In this document: in pieces, positions 2,699 through 63,855 of the stretch
Layout of the letters: each line of letters opens with the position of its first letter
Position numbering within the stretch: the first letter of the stretch is position 1
NCBI GenBank assembly: GCA_001687465.1
Contig: LVLI01000278.1
Coordinates: 62,001 to 126,000 of the forward strand
Reading direction: 5' to 3'
Source: Halocafeteria seosinensis
Lineage: Eukaryota; Sar; Bigyra; Bicosoecida
DNA length: 64,000 nt
Translations under genes and position numbers: made by a program
The notes under the pieces: model-generated
The model's input: the letters and a program-made list of their open reading frames with translations, nothing else
Told to the model about the DNA's origin: nothing
Databases searched by the model: none

Positions 2699-5600
2699 AT
2701 GCAATCAAATCTATCTTCAAACACTGCTAAAAAGCGTCTGGCTCAGCGTGGGAAAGAACTGGTAAGTAGGGTTTTTGCTTAACGGCTGTCCAGCAGCCCA
2801 AAAAGGAAGATAAGGGCACTGAACATATCCCCTGTTTTGTTATCAAGGGAAGTATTCACGGCCATGGGAGTGTATAATGAGGGTGTAAATTAGGCTTGCT
2901 ACCTCATCTAAGGCAGCTTCCTTCAGGCGCATTGCTTATCGCAATACGTGGTAATAACAGGGGGCACTAACTTCACAACGTTTGAATTGCAGTTCGCCAA
3001 CAATGCTGGAACTCGGTCGAAGAGTGCCCCTCATTACGGGGCGGAGAAAGAAAATTGGGAAGATTCCGGGAAACCTGGATCTGGGAACCGGAAAAAGCGT
3101 CAGCCGCTCCAGGAATGTCAGTCGAACACTGCCACTATATCTGAGGAGGGCAGCTCCACGCGACCTGGAGATCCTGCTGTTACGTTTCTCGACGTGGATT
3201 CCCACGGATCACCGACCGAGGATATCATGACGCCACTGCCGGGGAAAACAGAGATGCAAAGCCGCCGCAGCAGTCGCAAATGGAGACAGAATGTAAGGCT
3301 GGGTTCGATCTTTGGCCTAGAAACAGCTTCGATTAGCAACTGGATTAACGCAGATTCCTGCCCCGACGACACCGCGCACAAGTTTTCGTGAAGCATTAGG
3401 CGAGGATGATGCTGACAGTAAGCCTACAAATTGCGATTCCTGAAAATGAACATGCTTCGATTGGTTTCCGACTTCCAGATTTTGTGAACACAATTGCAAG
3501 GACTCCTGGTGCGAAACAAGGATTGGTATCAATGGACGAAATAATAGAACTGAGAGAGAAAATTGAAGATCAGGTGCGTCTACTCAACTTAAACAGACCA
3601 GGCATCCTTTGCATGTTGAATTTGTGAACGTTCCGTTGCAGGAACGAGACCTATCAGAGGAAAGTAATCCTGATATATATGAGAGTCTCGTTGACACCTA
3701 TCGCAGCATGGTTGCTCGACTATTTCGGTTGATGAAATCCCAACAAGCACACGTAGAGAACTTGAAAAATGCTGAACTGCAGCTTGCGGAAGAAGAACAA
3801 GCCGCATGGTCGGCGGAGCGCCGGAAAGACACGAAACAATCCCCCGAGGTGGCAAGGAATTCTTTGGGACTTGAGCAAGGGGAAGATGAAGCAAAGGAAC
3901 TTAGGCAGTGCAACGTGGAGCTTGAGGAGCAGAAGTCACAGCTTCAACGCGAGAAAGAAGAGTTAAAAGCACAAACTGACTCACTGCGAGAACAACTGAA
4001 TCGACTGCAAGAATCGCAGGATAAAGCAAGTGACCTTAAACGAAGCAACGCGAAACTATCCGAGCAGAATTCAGTGCTTCAACGGGAGAAACAGGAATTG
4101 AATGAACGCGCAAAATCTCAGGAACAGCAGCTAGATGAATATCGAGAATCGCAGAACGACGTAATGGAACTGAAGACAACCAACGCGGACCTCTCAGAGC
4201 GGAATGCAACCCTGGAACGCGAGAAAGAGCAATTAAATTCATACGCGGAGTCACTGAAGCAGCAGTTGCAAGAGTATGAGAATAAAGCAGACGGGCTGAA
4301 GAAAGACAACTCGGACTTGTCCGAACAGAAATCAGGGCTGGAAAGGGAGAAAGCCGAACTTAGGGAACAAGTTGCATCGCTGCAGGATCAACTTAATCTT
4401 CTGGAAACATCGGAGAACGAAGGTAAAGAGCTGAAGCAAGCTAATGCGGATCTTTCAGAGCAGAAGTCACACCTGGATCGCGAGAAAGAAGAATGGAGAA
4501 AACATGCAGAATATCTTCGGGAACAACTTAATCAAGAAGAAGATTTAGAAAATGACATGAATCAGCTAAAGCAGGCTAACGCAGACCTTGACCACCAAAG
4601 CTCCGTCCTTCAGCGCGAGAAACAAGGATTGGAAGATGAAGCGGCATCACTAAAGCAGCAACTTCAGGAGTCGGAGAATGAAGCAGAACAACTGAGAACA
4701 TCTAACACAGAGCTCAACGAGCAGGCACAGTCACTGAGGCAGCAACTACAACAGTCGGAGAATAACGTAAAGGAGCTGAGACAAACCACCAAGACACTCG
4801 CCGGAGAGAAATCTTCCCTACAACGTGAGAACGAGGAATTGAAAGACCACGCTAAAACATTGAAGCAGCAGATGGATCGACAGCAAGCAACAGAGATTGA
4901 AGCCAAAGAGCTGAAGCAAGTCAATGCTGACGTCACGGATCAAAAGTCTCTGCTTCAACGGGAAAAGGAGGAACTGAAGGCACAGAATACGTCGTTGCGG
5001 GAGCAATTGAACCGACTTCAAGATTTGGAGAATGCAGCAAAAGAGTCAAAGAGAGCCAACGAACAACTCTCCCAAGAGAAGTCTCGCGAAGAAAGCGAGA
5101 AAGAAAAATTGAGACAAGAAGCTGAATCGATGAAACAGCAACTGAAACGATTGCAAGACTCGGAGCAGAAAGCAGAGGAAATGAAACGAGCCAATGCTAA
5201 TCTTGAGGAGCAGAAGTCGCTGTTAGAACGCGAGAAAAAAGACTTGAGAAAACAGGTCGAATTGGCACAAGATCAATGGAATCGAGTGCAAGAGATGGAA
5301 AACGAGGCAAGTGAACTGAAAAAAGCCAATGCAAACCTTTCTGAACAGAAGTCTGTTCTGCAACGCGAGAAAGAAGAATTGAAAGATGCTATGGAGGAGC
5401 GTGCTCAAAGTCTTATGACACGGCCGCATACTTCGAATTATGGACGAAGCGAGGACGCTGTACGAAACGAAGAGCACGATCAAGACTCGTCCATGTTTGA
5501 GAACGCATCTCTTAAGGCAGAAGTAAGCTTTCTCAGAGAACAGATTTCTCAGTCGGGGTATTCCAGCCAAAACACGTCCGAAGAATTGGACAGTGTCAAA

Positions 5601-8600
5601 CGACGCAAAGAAGAACTGTCTCGGAAAGTTGATCAGCTTCAGCATGAGTTAAATGACAGTCGCTACAAAAATCAAAAGCTACAGCTCGAAGTGGACCAAC
5701 GACGGCGCGATATGGAAAATTTGAAGAGTTCCTGCTTAGACATGGAGCACAGAGTCCAAACACAGAATCATGAAATTAAACAGCTCCGGCAGGAACAATC
5801 GAAACAGACGGATGAATATCGGGCTTTAAATCGGAGTTACAGCACTCTTCTGGGTGAAAGGGATTGTCTAAATTCCATGGTATTGACCTTGCTAGAAAAA
5901 TATAACCAAAACCTCTCTAGTAGGATGCAAGGAGTTGCGGATGAGGTAAGAATTCCAAACACTCCGCGTAGGCAAAGTAATGCTGCTGCAATGACGCTCT
6001 TCACTAGTCCTTGGAGCGGAACTGAGCTATCTTCTCCGACGAAGTCTCAGAGGGAGAAGGGTTTTGTACCTTCTAGGGAGTCGCTTGAGGATGCACGACA
6101 TGCTCCAGCAGCTACTGAAGATGAGACCACCGGAGCAGATGTATCGCAGCGCAAAATTCAGGAGCTGGAAGAATCCCTTCAATCCAACAAGAACTTAGCC
6201 GAGATGCGTGCTCAGAAGATCTCAGCTTTGGAAGAGGAGTTGGGCATCCTTCGAGCAGAATCACAGCGTCGACATCAGCAGCGAGCATCCATAGAAGGCG
6301 AAATGCGCAAAATTGAAGACGAAAGAGACAGACTTTATGAAACTGTTGAGGAGACCAAAACTGAAAAAGGTGAGTTGGAGAAAAAATGCTCTACCTTAGT
6401 AGATTTGGCTAGCCGTCTATTCACAAGTTGGTCAAGAAGCGGGAACGCTGAGTGGGTATCGCGCTCATGTGAGAAACTAAAAGGAGAGGTAAACGGAGGA
6501 ACTGCTGAGACTCTTTCTCAATCATGCGAGAGCCTAAGGACGGAATTCTTCGCACAGAACAAAAAATCACAACACAACCAGCTCGTCCAGACCTCCGATG
6601 ACGAACTGAAAAGGAAGGAGCAAGAAATAGAGTGGCTAAGGAAAGAAATATGCGAACTGCAGTCTCGAAAGGAGGAAGAAATCAAACGCCTGGAAAACGA
6701 AATTGGTGACCTGAAATCCCGTAGAACAGAAGAAGTTGGTTCCATAAGGAAAGAAATTAATGACGTGAAGGCCCAAAAAGAGGAAGAAATGAATCGCTTG
6801 AGTAAAGAAATAAGAGACCTGGAATCTCGAAAGGATGGACAGATCAACCAGTTGAAAAAGGAAATAAGTGATCTGAAGTCTCAAAACAAAGAAGAGGTCC
6901 ATACTCTTGAACAGCGTAACTCTGAGTTGGATGAGGAACTGGAAGAGCAACAGCAGCAACAGGAAGAATATGAACACAGGGTCGAACAACTTAATGGTCA
7001 ATTAGAGGAGCTCAAGTCTACGTATGAACAGCAGATACCCTCATACAAAAAAGAAGTCCAAAGACTCCAAGCAGAGTTGCGGCAACAAATGCAAATAGAG
7101 GTTGAGTCACAGAAAAAGCTTGAGGAGCTCCGGAACATTGTAGACCAGCAAAGCGAAAGGCTACAAGAGTACAGCAGGCGCTCGACGATCAACGAGGACA
7201 TTCAGTCCATTGTTGCTGCTCTTAAAGATGATTACGCCCATATGGACAGCCAGCTCCGATTTTACGAAGGGAGGACCGACAGCTTAAGTAGCTCCCTTGA
7301 CGACACATCAAAGAAATTGCAGGAGCGTGAAAGAGAAGTTTCTTACTGGCGCAACCGAGCATGCACGTTTCAAGATCTATACGAGGCGACATCTCGAAAG
7401 AACAAAAACAGTTACATGGCTGCTTACGGGAAGTTGTGCTCTGTCTTACAGCAAGTGCTCGCCTTTATAGACACGCGAATCAATTCTTCTGATGATGACA
7501 ACGTCACCACTACCGACGCCGATCAGGACCGGGAGGACCGAAGCATTACTCGAGCTGCAGGAGAGGAGACGTCCCGGCTACTGCGTAGGCTGCTCGTACA
7601 TCGCAATGGAGAAGTAGAGTTATCGTTTAGGAGCGGAAATAAAAATTCTCCCGGCGCAAGTTCTATTTCTGAAGATAACCAAAACGTCTCGCATCTTGTA
7701 CGATTCCTTTCCAACAATGGGAATGAAGGAAGCTCATTGTTGCTTAAGATTGCCCAACTGGTTAGAAAGGGACTGGCTGATGCAGGAGAAGTCCTTGGAG
7801 CGAACTCAGAAGCTGAGACTGGCAAAGCCGAAGATGAGCTTAATGGTGGCGCTCATGACATGCCGCAACAACCTAGTGATATGAATATGGCTGCTTCCGA
7901 CTTCTCCGATACGCTTAGCTTACGTAGAGAACTCGAAAATATGCGGGCTGAGCTAAATTTTGTCAGGGAATCCAAGGAGGCCTTGGAGGAAGAGTTGCGA
8001 TCCAAGGAAAATCGTTATCGACAAAGAGGTATGACTCTGCTTTCTGAGCTTCATTCAGTAATTGAACGCTGCCGTCAGAGCAGTCATGATGAAGAGGCCA
8101 AGATGTCCGATCAACACCGCATCGAGCAGCTTCAGTCTGAACTTGAAAAGACGAAGGCTTCGGAAACGATGGCGCAAAAACGCTGCGAAGAGTTAGAAAA
8201 CGCCCAGGCTAAGAGACGATCCAACGAAGAGGAAACAGCGGATTATAGTGATTCAGATGATCAGAGCGTTGACTTTTCTTGCATAAGCATGTCTCTGAAC
8301 GAGTGCGTTAGCTTAATTAAAGAAAATCTCTCAAAGGTTTTCAATTCTAGCAAGTTGTCCAAACCAAAGAAGGAATTCGTGCGCCAAAGTCGCTCGCTGG
8401 TTGACAGGGTGTTGGAAGAGCACCACAGAGTTGTTGAGGAAAAAGATAATGACGTTGCGTCGAAGGAGCGCCGTCTAAAGGAATTGGAGGAACAAATCGA
8501 AGATGCTCAAAGGAAGTACCGCAATGCTCGCCGGGAAAAGCAGCAATTGAAGGAGCAAAATAAACGCACGGCAACCATGTCGAATGATTTAAAGAGTCAG

Positions 8601-9647
8601 TATGAAGAGACTATTACAAGCTTACAAAAACAGTTGGACATCTTCCGTGAGGACTACAGCCAGATTCAGGAAAGCGTCGAGAAAAAGACGAAATCTATTC
8701 ATAAATACCGCAAAGCGGTTCGTGCCATGATGTCGGTCGTAAAACGAGAATGTGGGCGGACGATAATCAATATGCTTCAAGAGAAGCTTCAAACGCTTCG
8801 AGGAGCGGACGATGACTTTGTACATGAAAATGATTCCTTTCCTGGTGTATCAAGAGATGATATAAGTCCAAAGGAAGAACAGTCAAGTGTTAAAAAATAT
8901 GGCGAAGATAAAAAGTCTGGCTACGGGGCAAGAGTATCATCCAGTAGACACAGAGTGGAAGATGGGCATAGGAGACCTAGAACCCGGCGTTTCGCCCAAG
9001 ATTCGGATGAAGAAACGGAAAAGACTGAAACGAAAGACAAGCACAGCACTAATTCTAGTTTGTCGGCCGATCAATTTCGGAAAATGCTACGGGAAACTGC
9101 TAAACGGGAATCGGCACGTACTTCGGAAAACGCAAAGCGAATTGCTGATGTAGCCTCCGACAAAAGACGCGACGTCGCTGTGAACCACGCCTCAGAGAGC
9201 CGTACTCAGTCGCTTCCTCCCAAGCCCCAGCGACGGAAAGCTCAAACTAAACCCTCTCCAAAACAACCTTCAAAGTACATATCCCATTCAGATGATGAGG
9301 ACCAAGGTTTTGAACACCGCCGACCCAATGTGGCGGAAGCGTCTCCAATGCGTGCCCAGTATCGGCAGCGTGCTGTTGGTGGCTCCACCACAAATAATAG
9401 CCGTTGGTTTGTGGAAAGTGCAGTCCGTCAAGCACAAGAGGCTTCACGAGCCGCTTCTCAATACAATCTAAGCAATCGTGAGGATGCATTCGAATACACC
9501 GCAAACGAAGCTCCATCGACACCCAAGAATTCACGAACGTTAGACGACCAATGGAGTGAAGTGCCGTTGGCAAGTGAACTAACGAAGCAGTTCGCCAGCG
9601 CTGGAGCAGCCCTACGTGCCAGGTCACAGCAACAAGGTTTCGAGTAG
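2699..9647 (+). CDS. Giant coiled-coil protein (2175 aa) with internal repeats
   Basis: Five exons: 2699-2761, 2993-3292, 3354-3417, 3479-3573 and 3642-9647, all with GT-AG borders and matching phase. Residues 1-174 are Ser/Arg-rich and disordered. The rest, in one 6-kb exon, is almost all heptad coiled coil. About 12 copies of a 42-45-aa unit run from nt 3899 to 5400 (consensus L-K-x-x-N-A-x-L-S-E-Q-K-S then L-x-R-E-K-E-E-L). Five copies of an 18-aa unit (K-E-I-x-D-L-x-S-x-K-E-E-E) lie near nt 6600-6900. The last 300 residues are basic and low-complexity with acidic patches (SDDED). This layout suits a long scaffold such as a centrosomal, basal-body, Golgi or cortical protein; the exact role is unknown. 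The first intron (231 nt) is unusually long and might hide another small exon. Confidence 0.85.
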
Positions 9648-22912: not shown

Positions 22913-24197
<1,285 letters not shown>

Positions 24198-24730
24198 TTG
24201 CCGTTATGAAGATCAGTTAATAATTAAAGAAGTAAAGAAAATAATCCTTCCCAAGGCTGACAGGCGAGGCTTACGCCTGAGACATACCAGATGACAAGGT
24301 GTCATTTGACGTCCATTCCCGTTTCCAAAATTTGGGACTATGGTAGGCCAATAGTTTGGAAACAACAAATACAGAACATACCCTGCAAAACTGTTTATAA
24401 CAACCAGAATTTATGGCCCATAAAGTATCCAATTGTCACACAGTGTTGATGCGCTTCACAAGCTAAGCTATGGTTATCTAAGAGTCCATTGTAGCGATTC
24501 CCTGTGCTTTGTTGTCTCAGCTAGCAATGTCTATAGAGTCGCTGTTAACTTAAAAAGAGTAGGATATGCTCAGTAAGCTCTGGGCCAGAGCAGGGCGAAA
24601 TCCATTCCGCGTGAGCTCACCTGTCATTATACTCTTTCTATGCTGTAAATACACGTTTTTCTGGATTTGGTGGAGGCGAAGACAACGAAAGAAACAGGGC
24701 GTTCATCATTCAAAAGACGAGGAATAAGTC
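24198..24730. other. Intergenic, one short palindrome
   Basis: 533 bp between histone H3 and Tex, both on the plus strand. No gene is seen. At 24577-24591 lies GCTCTGG-G-CCAGAGC, a perfect 7-bp inverted repeat with a one-base centre. It is too short on its own to assign a role. Confidence 0.5.
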
Positions 24731-32797: not shown

Positions 32798-35056
32798 ATG
32801 GAGGAGGAAAGAAAGGATACATCCTCTCCTGGAAGCAAGAGGAATCCAGACGAAGCACACCATGATTCGCTTGCTTATAACACTATGAATAAAAGTAATA
32901 ACACCACAGCTCCTACTTCCTCCCAAAGTGCGACTGCGGAAGTAGCGGGTAGCACCCTGGATGCCCCAACTGCTTCCGAGAATGCTGGGGAATCGAGTGA
33001 GAAGCCTCAAAAACGTCAAAAAACAGAGGTTCACGATAGCGCAAACACAGAAGAATCTACAGTAGATAAACATGATACTCTATGCGACACTGGTGCGAAA
33101 GCGTCTACGAGCGCAGTATACCCTGGGGAACGAGAAGATTTGGCTGCTAAAACAACTACGCCACCTGTCCCTTCTTCCGCCTCTGCCCCAGACGACGGAA
33201 CTGAAGAAGCTGGTACGTTCGTCTTACATAGCTTTGCAGCCTGAGTATGAGGAGATATTAATTTATGGCTTTCTGCAGATGCTAAAGCGAGTAATCACAG
33301 CGAAGCGTACCTGCTGCATCTTCTCACTTTCTTTATTGAAGTAGACTATGTACTGTCCCAGCATTTGGATAGGCAACAAAGACTTGCGAAACATATAGAA
33401 ACTAATGTTCATGACATTGTTAGGCAAATGATTCACGCTAAACGAAGTCGTACAAAGGATCTTAGTGAGGCGTTCAGTGAGATCAATGGGGCAAAGGACC
33501 CCTTCGACTACATCTCGTTCATTGAGGAGCATAGCCCGGGCACCCTGTCGTCTCACTTCGCAGCAAGCTGTTTGTCGGATGAAAAGTAAGTTTTTCTGGG
33601 TTCTTAAGTGTATTTACGCACTTTGTAAATGCCCTAAGAAATGTGTTTGGTCCCAACCAGATATGTCGATTGCTATCGATCTCATGAGAAAACCATCGAG
33701 GGTCAAGAGATTCCCATTTTAGCTGCAAAGAATCCGCAAGTCTTGGGCATTGTCAGTGCTGGTTTTCAACAGGAACTTGAATCCACTTACGAGGTGCAGC
33801 AGACTCCGGTACAATACGTGTCCAATGAGCTTAGCAAAGCATCGGAAACATTGGATCAGTCAGCAGAGCTTGCGGTCCGATACACTGTAAGCCTCATGCC
33901 TTCTCAGGAAGCATGTTTCCAGATCCATTGTGGAAACGAGGATCCTGCTTCCTCTTTGGAACTAGATGAGGAGACTTGTCATACTTTGCTCGATACAATG
34001 AATGAGTATATTTCGAAGAAAATCGAAATGGGAGATGTTGGGCAGTGCTTGCTTGGGGCAACCAGCTTTCGTCTCCCGCCGCCATGGAAGCGGTTACTTC
34101 CAACGTTGCGCAAGGTGTTAGGGGGTTTCACCAGCGAAGCGTGCAAAGAAGTAATCGAAAATAATTACCGTGTATTGTTTGAGCGATGGGGTATATTCAA
34201 TGTTTCTAAGTACTTTGAATTCTTCAAGTGTTTAGCGGAACATTCCGACGAGGAGGTGGTAGCCAGGACCTGCCAGCGTTTAGTAGCTGACACTCAAGAG
34301 TGGCATAGATTCTGCGATATCGCCAACAACCTCCTTTCGATTGACTTAACAAGCCTTAGCTCCTACAAAGACCACAACGAACGATTACGAGGTGATGCGG
34401 CAAGATTCTCCAATCTAAAACCAGAAGAATTCGCCGAAGCATCGGGTTGGTTTGCTCATCGCATGTTTGACGTTTCTCTGCACGCACTACAACAACTAGT
34501 ATCTATGGGAGAGGTAACCACAGCGGTTATTGAACTACTATCCCCGAACAATATCCCTCAGGTTTTCCAGGGTGAAGTCGCTAACACCATGAAGCAAGTC
34601 TCGGCAAATTTAAAGCATAAAATAAACGATGCGGATATTCCGATAAATGTCGACGAAGGATGTGTGTTAGTCAGGCGCTTATCCCAAGCAGAAAGCGCTT
34701 TAAAAGCCTACGGAACAAAGTGTTTCGGCTTAAAGAGTCTGTATCCTTCCCCGCCTCACTGCGCCATCCTGGAAGCATTACAAGACCAGCCAACTTTGCG
34801 GAAGCTTAGCTACAGCATTAGGTTTGCATACGGTGGTGATGCGTCATTGGTGCTTGCCTTGCTGCGGCATGGCATTGGGAGGTGGGACAAGGCGCTCAAT
34901 GACCCTGTCACTGGCTGGTGTCTCAACGCGGTGACGCTGGATAGTGAAGATAAGACCAAGTTGGAGCCATTGTCATTTATACCTTGCTGTATACACTCAT
35001 TCTTATGGCACAAAGTGTATCTCTTTGTTAAGGCTGCTGGGAAGTCGATCGACTAG
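32798..35056 (+). CDS. Unknown helical protein (705 aa) with disordered N-terminus
   Basis: Three exons (32798-33212, 33279-33585, 33661-35056) join in phase. Residues 1-138 are Ser/Thr/Glu/Lys-rich and disordered, with a basic cluster KPQKRQKTE that could be a nuclear localisation signal. From about residue 140 the protein is mostly alpha helix, with motifs such as AYLLHLLTFFIEVDYVLSQH and WFAHRMFDVSLHALQQLVS. Near the end, LVLALLRHGIGRWDKALNDP is reminiscent of Myb/SANT-like helices in chromatin remodellers, but one short match is not enough to assign a family. No catalytic motif is seen. It converges on the histone-fold gene with 24 bp between stops. Confidence 0.75.
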
Positions 35057-35080: not shown

Positions 35081-36885
35081 CTAGCTTCTTCTCTTCGATG
35101 ATGCCCGATCGATAGCTGATATCTCGCTATTCGTTTTCAACTGAAGGTTTTTGATAATGGCTTTCACTTCTTGCGTTAAGTCGCTCTTGCTTTTGTAATC
35201 CATACTATGGAGATCTGACTCCTCAAGTCTCTTTGACAGCTGTTCAAGTTTTGTTGTTGTCTGCTTTGATAGGGCAGAGCAGTGCTCTATTACCCGAAGA
35301 ATGATGGAAGGCCTGGCTACTCTGACCCTAGATGTTGCAGTCCGACCTGCCTGTGTCAATGGAGTTGCCCTTCGTGTGGACGTACGAGGTTGCGATCTGG
35401 ATACTTTTTTGGGGGGATTTTGGTACCTTGCATGTTTGGGTTCTTCTTTTTGCCTTGAACGTACTTTCTGAAGCCTTGACAGATCTGCGGATGGAGAACC
35501 CGCACTGAATATATCGTCGGAAAAGTCTAACTCTGTAATCATCGTTGAATTCGAAAGCATTGTTGATCTCTTGGCCCGGTCTATTGGTGTGGTGATCAAA
35601 CGAAGTCCATTGCCTCCGCGTGGTTTGGTACCATTTTTCGCTTCATTGTATTCTTTACTAAACGCGGGGCGTGGAATGTTGCTGTTGTCTCTTCGAGAAC
35701 TCGGGGGAGCTGTGAACTTCTTATCTACTTTAGCGTGTCGACTTGGTGGGCTCTTCGCGTTTTTTGGAGGATTCTTGGGACTAGATACTGTAATTCCCCG
35801 TCGGGCTTCTTCTCGCCTTTGCTTTTTCCAGTGCATCTGGTCCACCAGATAGATGTCTGCCCGTTTCGACATATGCAAGCTCTCTGGGGTCTCGCTCTCT
35901 GTGATAGACTGCCCATTATAAATGAGAAGAACTCTGTTGCGAGTCTCTTCCAGCGTCCCACTGGCCACCTTTGCATCCCAGTGGAAGTGTTTCCGGCACT
36001 GGTGTAACGCTGCTGTGGAAATTGCTTCGCGCGATGCAATTGAAATGCGTGTGGTCCCTGTCAGGGTAATCGGAGGTTGTCCCCAAAGTCGTTTTATGCG
36101 AACGTGCACAATTTCTGGCGGGGAGTACGCCCCTTGCATAACCAACATTATGTTCTGTACATGCAATTTGCAAGTATACAAGAGTTTCGACGGCAAAACA
36201 TTGTCTAGTGTTTTAACAACGTCTTCCACTGATAATGCACGGTCGGTAGTTGACGATGAGGCTAACTCCGACAGTCCACGACTCAATTCCCACGAGGTCC
36301 TGCTGAAGAATCTTTTTAAGAAGAGTGTGCTTTCGTGTGTCAGGAGATAAGTTGGGTGTACTCTCTTCAAGAGTAGAGATAGCGCGTTTTCGTTAAAAAC
36401 TGTAGATTCCTGCGAATCTCTGTCTTTCGATTCGTAATATACCTGCCCGCCAGACGCATCTACATATTTATGAAATGCTGCTTGTAGCACCAGATGAAGT
36501 TCGTGGTTTGACTGCAGGAACTCACTCCACCCTCCAGATGTATCTGAATCTCCTGTCAACGCGTTTTGGAAAGCTAGGACTGGTATCTGTTCTTCATGTA
36601 ACCGTGAATGGTTGGTGGTCTCTTTGAGAGCTGTCCGGTGCTCTAGTAGACTGACGGTCAGTGTGAGACACTTTTTGATGAGAGCTTCTATCGCCGCTGC
36701 AAAGACAATGCTTGCTCGATCCTGAAAAAAGAGCAAATCCTCGCAACAGTCAATGTAATAAACACAGTGAGTTCGATAGAACTTACGTCTAGCTGAAAAG
36801 TATCCCCTTGGCAAACGAACGCCTTGAGGGCCTCGACGTTGATAGTGATCCATCGTTCATCCACACTTTCCAAAAGCTTGTCCAT
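35081..36885 (-). CDS. Protein with two histone-fold-like regions and a SUMO-like domain
   Basis: Two exons (36787-36885, 35081-36721) give 579 aa. Residues about 17-88 look like an H2A-type histone fold: a short first helix, then DRASIVFAAAIEALIKKCLT compared with the APVYLAAVLEYL helix of H2A, and HEEQIPVLAFQNAL for the third helix. Residues about 150-225 look like H2B: LLKRVHPTYL, then RALSVEDVVKTLDNVLPSKL compared with the H2B T-S-R-E-I-Q-T-A-V-R-L-L-L-P-G-E-L region. Residues about 236-330 resemble a SUMO/Rad60-type ubiquitin-like domain (VLLIYNGQSITESETPESLH, then ADIYLVDQ). A basic disordered stretch and a C-terminal coiled coil (SKQTTTKLEQLSKRLEES) follow. There is no Gly-Gly end, so it is not a processed modifier. 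Calls rest on pattern reading; chromatin or DNA-repair scaffolding is an inference. Confidence 0.6.
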
Positions 36886-37301
36886 GATTTATTCATGTCT
36901 AAACTCAAGTGTTCCTTCCTTCACTATTTGTAAATCTCTTAGTTTCATCAATACACGTCGAAGTTGTACTTGTGGCCAAGTTGTGGTAAACTAACGGATC
37001 GCTGACCGACAACGCGCTACAATGTATGCACATGATATATTTTTGTTTACAGATGACATATATTGTGCACTTGGTATCACTCTCAGAACAGACAAACTGG
37101 ATAACTATTGAGGAGGGTATTGTCCTCAAGGAGAGCACTACTGCATTGTAATGCGCTGAGGTTGAGTCTTAAGGTTCACGCCGATCATGCACAACGAACA
37201 ACACGAAATAAGGAGATAACCCCTCGAGTAGGATGTCCAGGAAAAAGGACGATGCCTAGAATCGCTTGAAGTGGATTGAGATCTGTTTAGAAGCTAAAAA
37301 C
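36886..37301. other. Divergent promoter region
   Basis: 416 bp between the starts of the histone-fold gene (minus) and the EGF-repeat gene (plus). No open frame with recognisable sequence is present and no clear promoter motif was identified. Confidence 0.5.
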
Positions 37302-40300
37302 ATGACGCCAAAATACTTCCAGCGGGTTCTCTGGATTGGAATATGTTGTAGCATTTATACGCTACCATGTGGTGAGGCCAAGGCTTCCAAGAAAGGATCG
37401 AGGAAGAGCACGACTATAAAGACGGCTACACGCGTGCAACGGTGCCCTCGTAATTGCAACGGGCACGGGATATGTTTCTTGAAGCCTACCTTGCACTGTA
37501 GCTGCTTCCCAGGTTATGAGGGTGGAGACTGTAGTCTGCGTAAGAAGTGATACTACATCAAACTGTTATTCGATCTTCAAGCACTCTAAGTGTATTATGC
37601 TTTTCAGTTCAATGTCCTAAAGGGAAGAGATTCTTCGATGTCTTTAATGCCACATCCGTGGACGAGCTTACTCGATTCCATGAAACAGAAATTGAGTGCT
37701 CAGGAAGCGTAAGTATGGCGATATGGTATTCTGCTTAAACAAATTGAGTATGTAGGGAATAATTCGCAGGGAACTTGTGATCGAACTAGTGGCACTTGCG
37801 ATTGCCGCGATGGGTTCCGTGGTTATGCCTGCCAATTCTGTAAGTGCACTACAGTAGTTATGTGACCCCTTACAGCATCAGACCTCACTTTCTTACCGTG
37901 ACTTCCAGTTGGATGCCCATTCACTCCACAAGGGGAAGAATGTTCGGGACATGGAACCTGCAAGACTTTGGAAGAACTAGCAGAGACGCCTCGAGCTGAT
38001 GCCTCCGGCGAAATCTTCACGTACCGTACCAAATGGGATCGAAATATGGTCGAAGCCTGTGATTGTGACTTAGGATGGACTGGCTATGATTGCTCAGAGA
38101 AAGATTGCCTCTACGGTGTAGATCCGCTACGTTTAAGAAAAGAGGTATGTTGCGATGACAACAACAGCTGCTAGTGCATCAACTTTGATTAAGAAACCCT
38201 GGTGATATCGCAGAAGTTTGACTCAGCTGTTCAAAGAATCGAATGCGATTGCACTGTTGGCAATGAGACTTGCCGAGGCGAATTTTATGCCAGTTTTCGA
38301 GGTTGGAAAACATTTCGGGTTGACGCTCAAGCAGTAGTGCACATTGCTGACGAGCTGGCAGATAGTGTTAAAGACCCAGAACGTGCTCTAGGACATTCCC
38401 TAGAGAGTGCCCTGCATTCGTTTTTCCCTTTCGGAATCGTGACAAGAGTCAAGGTAAACGTGTCAGATGGAACCATTGACGGACCTTACAGAGTATGTCA
38501 CGATGGGTTCAAGACTCAAATCGACTTGACATTTCAACTTCGCCATGGTAATGCACCGAAATTAGTTATTGAAAGCGGTATTAAGGCCGGAGATGTTGAC
38601 GTTCCTCTGTCCGTTTCAACCATCGTTACGGGGAATGCTCCATTGTCAATATGCTCAAACCGTGGGTCGTGCAATAAGCAGACAGGTGGCTGCACATGTC
38701 TAAGTGGGTTTTCCGTGAGTGATGGGGCTGGTGGTAAGGGTCCTATTCCGAACTGTGGCTTCGGGGAGACTACTCCTTCAGGTTGCCCTTCTATCATTGG
38801 CAACGTTGATTGTTCAGGCCACGGGACGTGTGATTCAACCTTGCAAGTGTGCCAGTGTGAGGGACGATGGTTCGGTATAAATTGCAATAAAGAGACCTGC
38901 CATACTCATACCTCCTGGGGAACCCGCACTGTTGCGCATGACACCGCCCATCCACTGGAGGAGTGTAGTGGCAAAGGGGTTTGTACGGAAACTTCAGGTC
39001 GCTGTGCTTGTCAATCGGAATACACTGGAGACAAGTGCCAACGTCTACGTTGCCCACTCACTACTACAGGACGTACATGTGGAGGAAACGGAAGGTGTCT
39101 CTCTTTACGCGAAGCATCCCTGAAGAGCACAGTTTACGGAGAAGCTCCTGGAGGAACGGAGCTACAACGATTCAGTTGCAACCTTACTTCAGCAGAAGAT
39201 ACATTTCGGATTAGAATAGGCAACTTTGAGACGACAGACATTAAGGCGAATTCTGGGCCAATGGCTTTACAGGACATGCTCGAAAGTTTACCGTCATGGG
39301 TCACTGGATGGACGGATGTGTGGACGGATCGAAATTTCAGCGCTGTTTGCCCCGTCGATGCTACTGAATTCAGTGAGATCCTCGTGCACGTTAGGTTTTC
39401 TAGAGCTATCGGGGATCTTGAGCCCATGGTAATTACGTTTCAAAAGGAAGAGGAGACTGCAAGAGAAGTTGCTGCTGAGACGCTTAGCGGGAAGAATTCT
39501 GCGGTGGTATATGGTCAGCTCTCCGCAACAGATGAGCAGCAAGACCTCATGTGGGATGCTGACATGATGTATGTATTTCTTTTAGCTGTTTGCGTTTTAC
39601 AGGAAAGTTTGAGTCTTTCAGCATGCCACTGCATTTTGCAGGCACGGGTGTTTTTGCGATGGGTATCCTGATTTCAACCATACTTCTTCAGCAGGAGATC
39701 AGGCCTCATTCTTTGGGTTTGACTGCACAAAGTCAAGGTGCGCTCGTGGAGCCGATCCGCATCAAAGTAAACCTCTTTGTGCTGATGCTGAAGGGCTTTC
39801 AACGGAAAAGCTTACGTTTAACTGCTCCTTCGTGGAAGGATTTATGCGATTTCGTTTCATGGGGAAAGAAACCGAGTCGTTACATGTCACCACCACAACT
39901 CTAAGTGAGGTGATAACTGCCCTCAATAATTTGCCCACAATAGGAAACCTTTCAAGCATTCATGACATCAAGTCAAGTAAGATGGGATTTTTCTCCGACA
40001 ATGGACGTATGTCATTTGTACTTTGCGGTCGTCTGCAGGTGACATGATGTGCGACGGTGCACAGCATACTCTTTCTATTAATTCCCCTATCGGTAATCTT
40101 CCGGGAATTTTCATTGACACAACTCGTGCAAGGAATGGGGAAGTCTCGTTCGAGTACACGAATAGTACCGTTATTCCTCTTGTTTGCTCAAGTCGAGGCA
40201 TTTGCGAAGAATCAGTGGGAGTCTGTGAGTGCTACGACTTCTACGAATCTGGTGATGGTGTCGGGGGACAGGGTCAACGTGGGGACTGCGGTTTCTATAA

Positions 40301-40418
40301 CCCTGATTTTGTGGTACAAGCCTTAGAGCGTCAAACAGAAGCTGAACAAACGGATGAAATTACCACATTGCTCCAGCTGTTGGATCCCATTGGAAGAGAT
40401 GACCTCTCGGAAGGTTAA
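37302..40418 (+). CDS. Secreted EGF-repeat protein (914 aa)
   Basis: Seven exons: 37302-37539, 37608-37708, 37770-37839, 37909-38144, 38214-39568, 39642-40006 and 40039-40418. The start gives a signal peptide (FQRVLWIGICCSIYTLPCG). About eight EGF-like modules are spread along the chain, recognisable from NCNGHGICF..CSCFPGYEG, GTCDRTSGTCDCRDGF, CSGHGTCKT, SICSNRGSCNKQTGGC, CSGHGTCDSTLQVCQCEG, CSGKGVCTETSGRCACQSEY and CSSRGICEESVGVCECYDF. They are separated by non-EGF stretches of 60-150 residues. There is no transmembrane helix, so it is probably secreted or cell-surface matrix (tenascin-like layout). Cysteines come in even spacing consistent with disulphides. Splicing at 39568/39642 completes one EGF module (C-F-C-D-G-Y), which supports the model. 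Partner and role are unknown. Confidence 0.85.
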
Positions 40419-42432: not shown

Positions 42433-43483
42433 CTAGTATTCTTCTGTCTGTTTCAGAGGTAGGAGGACCGATATTGAGCCGGCTGTATCCAGACCGCAGT
42501 TGATAACGAATGCCACAGGTGGGCACATGCCTGTCGAGGAAGGACAATATATCGTGGAATATATTAATGGCGGCTGCCGGGAATTATCCACGCAATTCTT
42601 ACCTGCAAGAGCCTCCATATGGCGGTTTTGAAGACTGAAAGCATCTACAGCTTTCTTCAAAGCGTTGCAGCTCACGGATACCTTCTTCTCTTGATTTCCA
42701 GAGGCTGCGTACCCAGGGAAGCGTGTGTATCGAAAACCCAACCTCCTATCCGATTTGGTACACTTACACTGATCGGCCATATCTGGGTAATATGCTTTAA
42801 TAGCTGTATCTGTTGTCTCTATACACACACATAGAGTGCCATCTGGTCGAATCTCAAATGATACCTCGTGTGGAGAAAATGTTTTCAAGCGTTCCACTAG
42901 TGTTTTTAGTCTTCTCACATCTGGAAGTGCTGTTGACGCGAGTGGACTGGGGAGTTCCGGTTCTTTATACTCAGGAAGCTGACTTTCCGCCAGTACACGC
43001 ACAGGTACCTCATGGTTGATGACTAGCCCTACATCTTGCATTACTTCCATAGCTAAGCTTAGATACTTTGTCTGTCCCTTCTTGGTCAGTTTCATCGAGA
43101 CGCTGTGAGCTCCATTACCACCTCGCAAAGCGTGCATTAACGTTCCAAGATCGAACTTTAATCCAATGACATTGTTGGCTCTACTTTCGATAATAAAAGA
43201 GGACCATAAATCCGATGGATCGAGCTGGGCAAAACACTTTAAGGGATGATTGGCGCCCGCTTCACAGTGTAGTTGGAGACCATCCCTGTTGAGAATCAAC
43301 GTCGCCTCTTCCGATAGTTTGGTCATACTCTGTACCACAGTGACTGCATACTTACGGACGCAACTAGATGTTAAATTGGAGTAAAATGACAGCACATAAT
43401 GGCCAATTCCCTCCTCATTGAACAGGGAAGAACTCACCGAAAGTTTTGAATTTCGATATCTCAAAGAGAGCTCGAAATTTCAT
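42433..43483 (-). CDS. HUS1: Checkpoint clamp subunit HUS1
   Basis: Three exons (43438-43483, 42603-43343, 42433-42530) give 294 aa. HUS1 forms the PCNA-like 9-1-1 ring with RAD9 and RAD1 that marks damaged DNA. The start MKFRALFEISKFKTFVTVVQ matches the family opening M-K-F-R-A and appears only with the chosen first exon and acceptor. Further marks are EATLILNRDGLQLHCEAG, then KFDLGTLMHALRGGNGAHSV, LTKKGQTKYLSLAMEV, INHEVPVRVLAESQL and a C-terminal strand ending in VAFVINCGLDTAGSISVLLP. The first exon is only 46 nt and lies past a competing acceptor 18 nt upstream that would break the frame. Its 3' end lies 18 bp from the cyclophilin stop, so the two transcripts must overlap. Confidence 0.9.
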
Positions 43484-43894: not shown

Positions 43895-46438
43895 ATGAGC
43901 AACAAGTCCCTCAGTAGTAGTATAGGAGGCTCCACCGGCCGTGGAACCAATGATCCTTCGGACGATGTGATTGAGTGGCTCTCGTTGGAATGGATGTCAA
44001 GTGGGGACTTCCTGAGTCGCACACCTACCATATTGAGGATTCTACGCAGTCATAACTTCCCTCTCAAGCCGGAACCGAATTTTTTCGTCTCAGACAGTAG
44101 TGCCGAAGAGAAGATACTGCTCCCGGACGCGGGAAAAGATGCCTCAAAAGAGAAACAGACGGCGACCAAGACCTTGAGTCCGAAAACGCTACAACTTCTA
44201 CAGCAAATAGAACGTAAACTTATTGATCAAATTCAATCGAATCAAGCGGAAACAGGCATTTTCAGTGTACAGCTACGCGCCGCTGCAATTCTGGAGAGGT
44301 TAATAAGCAACTTCCAGCAGCCACTAGGAGGGTCTCACATCCCATTTGCTACGTTCTTGGATGTCGTTGTGGCTATTCTGAACCAATCCGAGAGACAACG
44401 AACAGATACTTCAGTATTTATTGGAGCAGCTTCGTGCATGTCTTTGCTGCATAGTTACCTCCCGGTGGTGGAAGGACAATCTGACAAACAGGAGAAGAAG
44501 GACTCTGCGATTAGTAGTCAGAAGTCCAAGTATGCGTCGTTGGTAATTAGGACATTGAATTTATTGCCGATGACCGAAGCGGGTTTTCCTCTATTAAGTT
44601 CTGCTTGTCAAGTAGTGTGGTACAAACTTCGAGAAATTGTCACCCGCGCTAGCGCAACAATGGGCAAAAAAACGAACGATGTCCTCAGTGCCGTAAAGCG
44701 GAGGGTGATGACCCCATGCTTAGCGGAGATACAAGAAATCGCGAAAACATTTTCGGTTTGTTGTCAACAATGGTCGACCAGAAAAGAAGTATTAGGGGCT
44801 CAGCGAGATACTCTCTATCTCATGCTAAAGGCAGCCACATTAATCGGAGATTTCTCTCAAAACGTTGGCCTTTTGAGTATCCCAACTGACAAATGGACCT
44901 TCTTTGAAGACCCGGGGATGGATCGCAGTGTGCAGATGCGAGAGACGCTGTTTAACAACACATGCCTGATGGTTCAAGCATTCTTCACTTGTAATTTCCA
45001 ACCCAATATGGTATTGGATATTCCATACATAACGACCATCCGCGTCATGGCGTGTGTATTCACTCGATTGTGGGCAAGCGGTCGAGAGCGAATTCGTGAC
45101 AATGCTTTCGGAGAATGCTTTTCCCCGCGGAATGCCCTTTTAGCTATAGAAACGACACAGATAATTCTTAAGTCGATTTGCAGGACCAGTCTCCTTCCAT
45201 CAAGATTGGTAAGCTCAACGCTATCGTCGTTAGATCATGCGGCAGCGATATGCAATAGGTAAGCTGCTGTCATGCTTATTGAAGTATCTACCTTATAGAT
45301 ATAATCACTCCGCGGTTTCTGCTATTCAGTATGAGGCTGGATGACTCTATCACTATGTTGCTGGGACCATACGTACGCCTAGCGAAGCAGAGCGGATCTG
45401 CCTTAGTTGCCGATTGCTTCGATCCTCTCATGAAAGAATTGGATCGTCGACGGTCATCTTACCAGCGACGGACCATTCTGCAAAGCGCAGTCGGCTTCCT
45501 GACGGATTTTGCCCAGGAATGTCATATGCGGAATAATCGATCTGTGGATACTGCGGTACGTAGTACATTGTACGTTTTTTGGTCAATTCTAGGGCCCCTC
45601 GTGACAGTTTGATTCCGTTCTACAGTTGGTGGGGAAGAAACGGAATAGGAAAGAGGCTTCGGGCACTAGCCATGCTGTTACTTCTTTTGGAGATGGACGC
45701 TGCCGTAAACAGCATGGGAAAGCAATCAAAGTAATGGAGGCCCTATGTGATATTCTGAGTTTCAAAAACACCAGTGCATTGCTTCCTCTCCGTCTAAGGC
45801 TCTGGCTTATTCATTGCGTCAACAGTATTTTGGAATTATCCGGAGATCCCTGTGTTGCGAAGAGTGGATTCGCCCTACGAGCGCGGCTGATTTTCACAAA
45901 GCATCAAGGAAGCCATATGTTACATGCAGCTCCGGGTGTGCTCAGACAAGCTGCTAGTCTTGGAGACGATGACTATTGCGACACCATTTTAGGTCATGTA
46001 GATTCTATTTTGCGACCATCGGCGGCAGCTTTCAATTCGCATGTCAGCAGGCACACCTGTGGAGTCGGAGAAATTCAAAATACGCTTGAACGGTATACAC
46101 AGCAAATACTTACTCGAATGGAAGCAGCGGTTATGGAGGAGAAGGAATCTTCTTGTAAATCTGATGCCCTATACTCTTATTCCCCAGACCAAGAGTGGCG
46201 AGAACGGCATCACACATATGAGGTTACAAATGTAACGCACAGGTCGCTGGGAACTGTACAAGCATCTGCTGGAGAGACCAGTATTCAAGCAGCTATTTCA
46301 GGGACGGGGCAAAATACGAATACTGTAACAACCGAAGCATTAGGAAAACAACCACCGGCCAGTCAACAGACGGCAAAACATGCAGAGGATGAGGAACAAC
46401 AGGAAGACGATGATGATATTCCCGACATTGTGTGGTAA
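43895..46438 (+). CDS. Helical-repeat protein with acidic tail (800 aa), possibly Rix1/PELP1-like
   Basis: Three exons (43895-45258, 45330-45555, 45626-46438) join in phase. From about residue 20 the chain is amphipathic alpha helix in HEAT-like array (for example LDVVVAILNQSERQRTDTSV and SACQVVWYKLREIVTRAS), followed by a Ser/Thr/Gln-rich linker and a very acidic end EEQQEDDDDIPDIVW. The order helical repeats, then acid-rich tail is like the ribosome-assembly protein Rix1/PELP1, but the resemblance is one of layout and I cannot show residue-level homology. The first in-frame ATG was chosen; the frame is open about 114 nt further upstream from a non-ATG codon. The 3' end is 55 bp from the convergent TPH gene. 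Confidence 0.7.
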
Positions 46439-46493: not shown

Positions 46494-48193
46494 CTAAAAC
46501 ATTTCATCTGCCGCCAGCAACCTCTCTTGTTTTGTCTTTTGTAGTGCCCTGCGAGAATGATGCAACGGGTGATTTTTGGATTTCTCATTTTCGAGAAAGC
46601 GCGTAGATTCATGGTTAAATGTCTCATCTCCTTCAAGGGACTGGTATTTTGCATAGTTGTCCTCTTCCATTTCCTCAGCTGTAAGTTCCGCGTACCTCCG
46701 TTGCTTTTCCAGTATTTGGGCTTCTTGTGCTCTTGCAATGGCAGTAGCTTCCTCCCTCTTCTGCTGAATAGCTTCTTTTTCTGCCTCCTCCATTTGCTTT
46801 GAGGCTTGTTCAGCTCGTTCAGCTATCTTTTTCTCTTCCTCTCTTTCACGTTCGCGTTGCTCTCGTTTCTTGCGCATCTTCATCTCCCAGTCACCTATAC
46901 ATTTTCTATCCAGCTGTCTCCTCTGTTCTTTCTCGTTAGCTTCCTTCCGCACTTGTTTTTCTTCTGCCTGCTGCTGTTCCTTTGCAAGCTTTTCACCTTC
47001 TTTTGACATTCGCTCCATGAAGTCACGCTCCATTATGCTCCCCAGCTCCTGAGCCCTTTGTTCCGCATTGGCTCTCTTAGCCTCGAGGAAGGCAGCTCTC
47101 CTCCTTTCCTCTCTGTCTTTAGCCTCCTGATATTCCTTGTATTTCTCTAGTTCAATCTTCTCTTGCTCTTTCAACCTCTTGCGCTCTTCAGCATTCTTTT
47201 GATTCGCTTGGAGTGCTTCCTTGTTTCGCTCTCTGGCTTCTGCTTTTCGCTTTTCTTCTAGCTCACGCTCTTCTTCAGCCTGCTTTTCAGCTTCTTGGCG
47301 TAAGCGCTCTCCTTCTTTACGCTGTTCTTCGTGGCGCTCTTTCTGTTGGCGCTTCGCCTCCTCCAGTTGTTGCCGCAGAGATTGAGCCACCTGGGATACA
47401 AACATTTCTAGGGGTGTGCAGTAGTATGTTGGTAATGTAAAAGAGTGTATACTTACCTCCGATTTGATTTTCTTCTCATGTTCAGCCTCACGTTCTTCTC
47501 GAGCTTTCTTGGCCTCAACGTCCTCGAGTAACTTCTCGTAGTGCTTCTGTTCTCGTTGCTTTTCGAGTTCTTTCATGCGTTGTTTTTCCTTTACTTGTTT
47601 CTTTTGGACCTGTAATTTGTAATACGATAGAACATAAAATACACAACTTCGCCGCACAGCAGAATTATGGCACTACGTACATCCATTGCTCGGGATAGCA
47701 TCTGCTGTGTCTTGAGAGCTTTCATTTTTTCTGTATCACTTTGCATCAGGTTGTTCGCTTGGCGCAACACATCTAGTCTCTCCTGTAGCGCTCTAGCATG
47801 TTCTTCTTCGTCAATCTCTTGTCGGCGCTCTTCTTCCTGTTCACGTCTGCGCTGTTTCTCACGCTCTTTGGCCTTTCTTTGGGCCATCAAGGTATTTGGC
47901 CAGCGTTGGCTTTTTTCTTGGGATCTTCTTTTTCGCTCTTCATCGCGCCTTTTTTCCTCTTGTAGATCTTTTGTTTTCGACGCATACAGCAGCTCACTGG
48001 CAGCTTGGTCCTTCTGGGACTTCACTGTTGACCATTCAGGCTTCCGAGCCCGGGTTCTCGACCCTCCCAGAGATCCTCCAGTGCTCGCTCCCCCAGCGGT
48101 TTGCATCCATTGCGAAGTGGCCATAGAAGACTGAACCTGGGAGGCATCTTCCTTCATCCGACACACGTCGGATGGGGACAGAAAAGTGGGCAT
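46494..48193 (-). CDS. TPH-type ciliary coiled-coil protein (CFAP210-like)
   Basis: Three exons (47681-48193, 47457-47609, 46494-47390), all phase 0, give 520 aa. From residue 60 to the end it is one charged helix rich in Glu, Lys, Arg and Gln. The segment LQERLDVLRQANNLMQSDTE then KMKALKTQQMLSRAMD resembles the conserved start of the trichohyalin-plectin-homology region in CFAP210/CCDC173, one of the proteins inside ciliary doublet microtubules. The long helix (EEHARALQ..., ERDFMERMSKEGEKLAKEQQ) fits the same group. Low-complexity coiled coils align easily by chance, so the family name is tentative; the gene model itself is solid. If right, it shows that the organism builds flagella. Confidence 0.75.
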
Positions 48194-62503: not shown

Positions 62504-63855
62504 ATGAAGATTATTTCGTCGTTGTTGTTCTTGGCCTTGGCAGCCAACTGTGCCTCGGCCTTGGTACGCATTCCCATGCATAAGATGGAATCCCCCAAGG
62601 ATCAACTCCGCCGTGCTGGTTACCACGTAAGTTAATATTTTTTTGTGTGTATTGGAATATGCCGTTATAGCGTCTGCAAATATGGAAGAGGGACTGAAGA
62701 ACACTAGCGAGGGGGCACGAAAATAACAAAAAAGGCCCCGAAGGGTGTGTGTGAGGGGACAAGTTTGGCGCGGGAATCAGTGAACAATGGAAAGCCCTAG
62801 GATTCTGACCCAATGTTCTTTCGTTTTGTGCCATGCAGCGCATCGGTGGAATCCATCATAAATATGGAGATAAAGCAAACGTACCAATCAATAACTACCA
62901 GGATGCTCAATACTATGGCGAAATCTCTGTTGGAACTCCACCTCAGAAGTTCCAGGTGATATTCGACACAGGAAGCAGCAACTTGTGGATTCCCTCTACA
63001 AAGTGCACGAACTGTGGAAGCCACCCGAAATACAACCACACGGCCTCTAGCACATATCACAAAAACGGCACCTCCTTCAAGATCATGTACGGAAGTGGAC
63101 CTGTCAGTGGTTTCATTTCCAATGATGATGTTACTGTAGGTGGACTAACTGTAGATGGCGTTGATTTCGCTGAAATCACTGATGTATCTGGACTTGGCCC
63201 CGCTTACTCTCTTGGTAAATTTGACGGTATCTTGGGTATGGCTTGGAACAAGATTAGTGTCGATGACATTCCGACGATCTTCTCCGACTTCGTACAACAA
63301 GGCTTGGTAGATGAGCCTGTGTTTGCATTCTACTTGTCATCTGACAGCAGCAAGCAGGGTGAGCTCACCTTGGGTGGCATTGACAACTCCAAGTACACCG
63401 GAGACATATTCTATCAAGATTTGAGTTCCGAAACTTACTGGGAAATTAAGTTGGGTGACTTCAAGGTTAATGGAGATAGCATGACGAGTGTGCATAAAGC
63501 CATCTTGGACACTGGCACTTCCTTATTGGCAGGTCCCACTGACGAAGTGAAAAAGATTGCGAAGAAGGTCGGTGCCAAACCCTTCTGGTTGAACCCTAAT
63601 GAATTCACTGTTAACTGCAGCGCTATTCCCAATATGCCTGATATTGAGATTGAAATTGGTGGAAAGACATTTACGCTCTCAGCTAAGGAATACGTATTGA
63701 ACGTTGAAGATGTGGAATGCCTTTTGGGTATGACTGGTATTGATGTACCGGCACCAGCTGGTCCTCTGTGGATTTTGGGTGATGTTTTCATTCGTCAGTA
63801 TTACACCATATTTGACTGGGGACAGAAGCGTGTAGGTCTTGCCACCGCCGCATAA
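62504..63855 (+). CDS. Cathepsin D-like aspartic protease
   Basis: Two exons (62504-62626, 62839-63855) give 379 aa. It is a pepsin-family acid protease, probably lysosomal, vacuolar or secreted. The start has a signal peptide (SSLLFLALAANCASA) and a short propeptide (res 17-60). The mature enzyme has both active-site motifs: FDTGSSNLWIPSTKC and ILDTGTSLLAGP. Also seen are YYGEISVGTPPQKFQVIFDT, the flap Tyr in FKIMYGSGPVSGF, and the closing PLWILGDVFIRQYYTIFDWG then KRVGLA. Cysteine pairs match cathepsin D (three pairs) and N-glycosylation sites occur (YNHTASS). The intron separates signal and pro-region from the enzyme. Identity to saccharopepsin and cathepsin D is high by eye. Confidence 0.97.

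Follow-up and report, generated by a model that had tools for sequence, protein, structure and literature searches.

What kind of protein would carry two histone-like regions and a SUMO-like domain in one chain? The question is raised by a gene on the minus strand (36885-35081) of a 64,000-nucleotide stretch of the Halocafeteria seosinensis contig LVLI01000278.1 (positions 62,001 to 126,000, referred to as the window in the rest of the text). An earlier note, made from the sequence alone, read its product as an H2A-like fold, an H2B-like fold, a SUMO-like domain and a basic tail. Two exons (36885-36787 and 36721-35081) give 579 codons plus a stop after splicing, exactly the 579 amino acids of the model proposed there. 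We found that an H2B-like fold and a SUMO-like domain stand together in this protein, with enough support for the combination to be called unusual. Our preferred reading, to which we give a probability of roughly 45%, is a non-nucleosomal nuclear chromatin adaptor, probably with a double histone fold, that has a built-in SUMO-like domain and a basic tail. That it acts as a single-chain mimic of the H2A-H2B dimer is a good hypothesis, for which the basis is a single gene model, a pair of sequences and structure models of low confidence. Three features carry the argument:

36137..36391, minus strand: H2B-like histone fold and C-terminal helix (residues 144-228), from sequence profiles, predicted helices and Foldseek
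35831..36115, minus strand: SUMO-like beta-grasp domain (residues 236-330), from Foldseek, a profile and Pfam
36557..36837, minus strand: first histone-like region, H2A-like only suggestively (residues 17-88, spanning the intron), from predicted helices and shuffle scores

Residues 144-228 resemble histone H2B

A protein search returned one homologue, P0001 (556 amino acids, 44% identity, 90% cover, E 1.1e-121). A profile built from the two sequences (residues 140-232) scored 26.5 against H2B (the genome's own and one from the PDB) in an alignment of 63 columns that is interrupted by one gap of one residue (probability 45%); against H2A, H3, H4 and ubiquitin it scored 8 to 12. None of 200 column shuffles reached 26.5 (best 21.7). 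Neither, in a harder control, did any of 222 pseudo-pairs (best 19.2), for which segments of the window's other open frames were each coupled with a simulated sequence at a comparable level of identity. In ungapped BLOSUM comparisons with H2B, 0 of 1000 shuffles did as well as the query, whereas for every other histone at least 245 of 1000 did; for the pairwise local score of the query against H2B the count was 4 of 1000. Hydrophobic classes agreed with those of H2B at 61 of 84 hand-aligned columns for the query (0 of 5000 shuffles) and at 59 for P0001 (1 of 5000). This alignment extends through the C-terminal helix, and its register peaked at zero among 17 slides in both homologues. Helices are predicted at residues 144-153, 162-188, 198-208 and 211-228.

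Two AlphaFold models, for which exon 2 and a single homologue were the only input, had low confidence (mean predicted local distance difference test scores, pLDDT, of 43.9 and 46.7), too low to show a handshake. When a model was compared with the PDB by Foldseek, the first four matches were histone chains, all weak (E 0.2-0.7). In a second look with model 1, 10 of the 50 matches listed aligned residues about 90-198 with histone entries; the other 40 fell on the C-terminal helices and their surroundings and are generic helix pairs, to which we gave no weight. A fold check of the kind called for in the earlier note, made on exon 2, brought histone chains to the top of the search, and the SUMO fold described below, without a confident handshake. 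Neither unrelated helices nor a better-matching family emerged over residues 17-225, the outcomes that the note had named as speaking against it: the only Pfam matches there, far below cut-off, were DUF7706 (E 0.071, residues 157-209) and Choline_kin_N (E 0.26, residues 189-213). On profile, register and Foldseek evidence, the H2B fold that had been placed at residues 150-225 is moderately confirmed over residues 144-228.

Several results weigh on the other side. The local score of P0001 against H2B was reached by 19 of 1000 shuffles, with the alignment out of register, and H3 fits too when only hydrophobic pattern is compared (12 of 1000, compared to 48 of 1000 for H2B). Used as a single sequence, the open frame tied for first of 223 frames (score 19.1) with an unrelated one, 45283-45609, which itself has no Pfam match at E up to 10. 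The Pfam Histone family (PF00125) matched neither the whole protein nor the cut-out region at E up to 10, and both AlphaFold models are low-confidence. The gene is likewise absent from the genome-wide list of PF00125 matches at E up to 10, and no Pfam model reached its cut-off for the protein. The missing histone match, the tie and the poor models would all suit a chance resemblance, in which a helical non-histone region happens to precede the SUMO-like domain. We consider this quite improbable, as the two-sequence profile was equalled in neither control, the register peak lies at zero slide in both homologues and histone chains top an unbiased fold search of the PDB.

Alternatively, the protein could correspond to a known histone-fold subunit of a transcription complex, for example SPT3, TAF12 or ADA1, as an orthologue that diverged fast and gained a SUMO-like domain. 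The TAF13/SPT3 family (PF02269) was found neither in the protein nor, at E up to 1 in an exon-wise search, in the genome, so that this role may be vacant. The TAF12 family (PF03847) matched the genome below its cut-off only (17.2 bits versus 27), and SPT3 likewise carries two histone folds according to a 2026 review (PMC13088155). However, exon-by-exon searches can miss genes of the SPT3 or TAF12 type. Moreover, core H2B (26.5) was the best match among the proteins compared, which were the core histones, ubiquitin and the genome's own NF-YB-like and NF-YC-like pieces (11.1 and 10.7). We regard such an orthologue as improbable.

The LLPGEL motif of H2B aligns with VLPSKL in the query and MLPPRL in P0001. 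The glutamate of this motif (LLPGEL or LPGEL), the acidic-patch glutamate of H2B, is thus lysine in the query and arginine in P0001. The charge of the fold regions is not clearly basic, with 7 lysines or arginines and 10 aspartates or glutamates in residues 14-92 and 10 and 8, respectively, in residues 141-230. The altered acidic-patch position and this near-neutral charge argue against a packaging role. They bear on the reading of the protein as a nucleosome-building doublet histone like those of giant viruses, for which its histone order and length would suit a one-chain dimer. Nevertheless, the genome has ordinary H2A, H2B, H3 and H4 genes, the protein carries large extra domains, a single gene copy was found, and none of 28 pattern matches in viral contigs was confirmed as a relative. 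A nucleosomal doublet is exceedingly unlikely, and we rejected it on the presence of ordinary core histones and of lysine or arginine at the acidic-patch position.

A SUMO-like domain that cannot be conjugated

In a Foldseek search with residues 236-330, ranks 1 to 6 were all SUMO entries, the best being SUMO1 (E 3e-4); in a second look SUMO tied with the PI3K RBD and ubiquitin-like folds. A profile of the region scored 21.5 against the genome's own SUMO (0 of 200 shuffles), across 22 columns only, and Rad60-SLD was the only Pfam match of the cut-out region, below its cut-off (E 0.18). The SUMO-like domain announced at residues 236-330 is confirmed at the level of the fold and, across those 22 columns, by profile. 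Identity to P0001 is 64% over residues 233-330 and 46% over residues 141-232. Since the H2B-like and SUMO-like regions are both kept in P0001, the two-domain layout is no accident of one gene.

The domain has no diglycine end and its chain runs on for 249 residues past residue 330 (LVDQMHWKKQRREEARRG, without GG); it is non-conjugatable. It sits 7-8 residues after the C-terminal helix of the H2B-like region. H2B is ubiquitylated in its own C-terminal helix, at K120 in human and K123 in yeast. The protein might thus imitate, permanently and by its gene alone, an H2A-H2B dimer that bears a modification: both folds would be present, with a SUMO/ubiquitin-like domain joined on after the C-terminal helix of the H2B-like one. 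Such a permanently 'marked' dimer would decoy or recruit readers, chaperones or erasers of modified H2B with no enzyme needed, and would amount to a protein-encoded substitute for histone modification. We hold this to be very unlikely; in its geometry, the domain is attached by its N-terminus, not its C-terminus.

The first histone-like region

The H2A-like half at residues 17-88 is no more than suggestive. Among the five core histone types, H2A was its best local match (42 of 1000 shuffles), and helices are predicted at 35-64 (long) and 81-88 (short), as would be expected for helices 2 and 3 of a histone fold; together these speak for a first histone-like half. An H2A register chosen by eye was reached by 14 of 5000 shuffles. 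Other tests do not establish H2A: its hydrophobic register stood at 44 of 1000 and its BLOSUM register at 134 of 1000, with H3 (62) and H4 (97) fitting no worse by the latter, its profile score of 13.4 lay inside the shuffles (up to 23.1), and in a window-wide control the open frame was outside the first six for H2A. P0001 begins at the equivalent of residue 53 and is uninformative on exon 1 and most of the first long helix. Of the histone doublet with a SUMO-like domain proposed in the earlier note, the H2B-like fold, the SUMO-like domain and the basic tail hold, whereas the H2A-like fold, with scores at the edge of chance, is not established.

These results bear directly on whether the protein has one histone fold or two. 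It may have only the one at 144-228, residues 17-88 being other helices, and pair in trans with a separate H2A-like or NF-YC-like protein. The first region is within shuffles by profile and not H2A-specific by register, and ordinary H2A, H2A.Z and an NF-YC-like exon in the genome are possible partners. But a long and then a short helix, correctly ordered, precede the H2B-like fold, with H2A the best match of the five core types. In addition, the 2026 review (PMC13088155) states that intrachain pairing has been found to date for every tandem histone fold, a point that presupposes two folds. We consider a lone fold somewhat unlikely. With the double fold as our preferred reading, an intramolecular H2A-H2B pair is plausible, the sequence evidence for it being at the edge of chance and the structure models of low confidence.

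Proposed role

Behind the SUMO-like domain lie three further features:

35786..35830, minus strand: conserved basic helix adjoining the SUMO-like domain (residues 331-345), identical in P0001 at 14 of 15 positions and helical in both models
35309..35785, minus strand: basic tail, mostly unstructured (residues 346-504), from a charge count and mostly without predicted secondary structure
35084..35308, minus strand: C-terminal pair of long helices (residues 505-579), predicted at 505-534 and 542-577 (pLDDT about 48-64), 37% identical to P0001 over residues 506-575

The tail, 40% identical to P0001 over residues 346-505, is basic as first described, with 35 lysines or arginines versus 12 aspartates or glutamates in 163 residues (343-505).

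We propose a histone pseudodimer within a single chain, in which the H2B-like fold (144-228) probably has a diverged H2A-like fold (17-88) as its partner. This pseudodimer, or the single H2B-like fold, would be a docking surface for chromatin or a chromatin complex, presumably in the nucleus. The SUMO-like domain, acting as a fixed SUMO mimic, would recruit partners of the SUMO pathway or SUMO-binding proteins, the basic helix and tail would lend non-specific affinity for nucleic acids, and the C-terminal helices may oligomerise the protein or bind a partner. Such a protein would link the SUMO pathway to a mimic of the histone dimer within the same chain. It would also be a natural single-chain system for testing how surfaces of these two kinds, histone-like and SUMO-like, are read jointly.

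Gene model, relatives and genomic setting

36787..36885, minus strand: exon 1 (residues 1-33), with ATG at 36885 and a GTAAGT donor, outside the coverage of P0001
36722..36786, minus strand: intron of 65 bp, GTAAGT...TTTTTTCAG
35081..36721, minus strand: exon 2 (residues 34-579 and the stop), an open frame with homologue P0001

Splicing joins the frame of exon 1 to that of exon 2, and helix 1 and loop 1 of the putative fold at residues 17-88 would be encoded by exon 1. The intron is one of seven pairs of GTAAGT and polypyrimidine-CAG ends, 45-149 bp, found by scanning both strands of the window, and an H3-like gene within the window has intron ends of the same style. That gene, at 23540-24200 (plus strand), is H3.3-like, with its intron near the 3' end and a first exon matching PF00125 (129.5 bits). 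Conservation in P0001 confirms by sequence comparison that exon 2 is coding; this support does not reach exon 1.

Three protein searches, among them one with the pair as a profile and one with residues 145-335 alone, found only P0001; two scored no more than the 8000 candidates sharing most words, and the third scored 462. No relative was confirmed among 58 pattern matches in prokaryote genome contigs. Whether this protein or P0001 was the query, the 30.6-Mb, 605-contig genome gave a single locus and no second paralogue, copy numbers being lower bounds. Genes with introns and clustered H2A, H2B, H3 and H4 genes mark the genome as eukaryotic. A sequence search of solved structures with exon 2 gave zero matches at E up to 10; a 182-residue piece gave four chance-like matches, one of them SUMO (E 0.97), and a profile gave one antibody (E 0.67). 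PHROGs and NCBIfam held nothing of note for the protein.

The stop of the gene lies 24 bp from the end of a convergent open frame of 471 amino acids (33641-35056, plus strand), which has no Pfam family over cut-off. Elsewhere in the window are a 2012-amino-acid open frame (3609-9647, plus strand) with weak, sub-cut-off Pfam matches of coiled-coil type only, a multi-exon EGF-repeat protein (37300-40418, plus strand; PF07974 in frame 38202-39671), a Hus1-like checkpoint protein frame (42433-43464, minus strand; PF04005, E 5e-36), a TPH-domain frame (46494-47657, minus strand; PF13868) and an aspartyl protease frame (62833-63855, plus strand; PF00026, E 2e-105).

Comparison with known systems

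No description of a histone-fold and SUMO-like layout was found in the literature searched, mainly open-access journals, in agreement with the earlier note, to which the layout was unfamiliar; nor is a SUMO fusion among the double histone folds in the available part of the review (PMC13088155). SUMO-like domains occur in a few chromatin proteins, as far as the accessible text of PMC549199 goes. The RENi proteins (Rad60, Esc2, NIP45) typically have two such domains at the C-terminus (same portion of PMC549199); unlike them, the protein described here has a single such domain, whose last residue is 330 out of 579, with helices after it and an H2B-like fold before it. With the genome's own SUMO it shares the beta-grasp fold and a GQxI...TPxxL stretch, but it differs in lacking a diglycine end, in being fused inside a longer chain and in most other residues. 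With core H2B, both the genome's own and PDB chains, it shares the KxVHP motif, helix lengths, the LP motif and the C-terminal helix. It is unlike core H2B in that 15 of 84 columns are identical (about 18%), the acidic-patch glutamate is replaced and the region lies inside a 579-residue protein.

Eukaryotic double histone folds outside nucleosomes form a handful of families, namely SOS, ABTB2 (Cca3), SPT3 and the animal HSIH proteins, in the part of the review at hand (PMC13088155). The domains of SOS and ABTB2 (RasGEF/DH/PH, ankyrin, BTB) had no Pfam match in our protein at E up to 10, and a SUMO-like domain stands in place of RasGEF, ankyrin, BTB or PF02269. If residues 17-88 are a histone fold, the protein resembles SOS, ABTB2, SPT3, HSIH-DHF and the viral doublets, as that part of the review presents them, in having two folds in one chain, and SOS and ABTB2 in joining those folds to other domains (PMC13088155). 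Its proposed order, H2A then H2B, would be that of some of the HSIH-DHF proteins, whereas SOS has H2B then H2A (same source).
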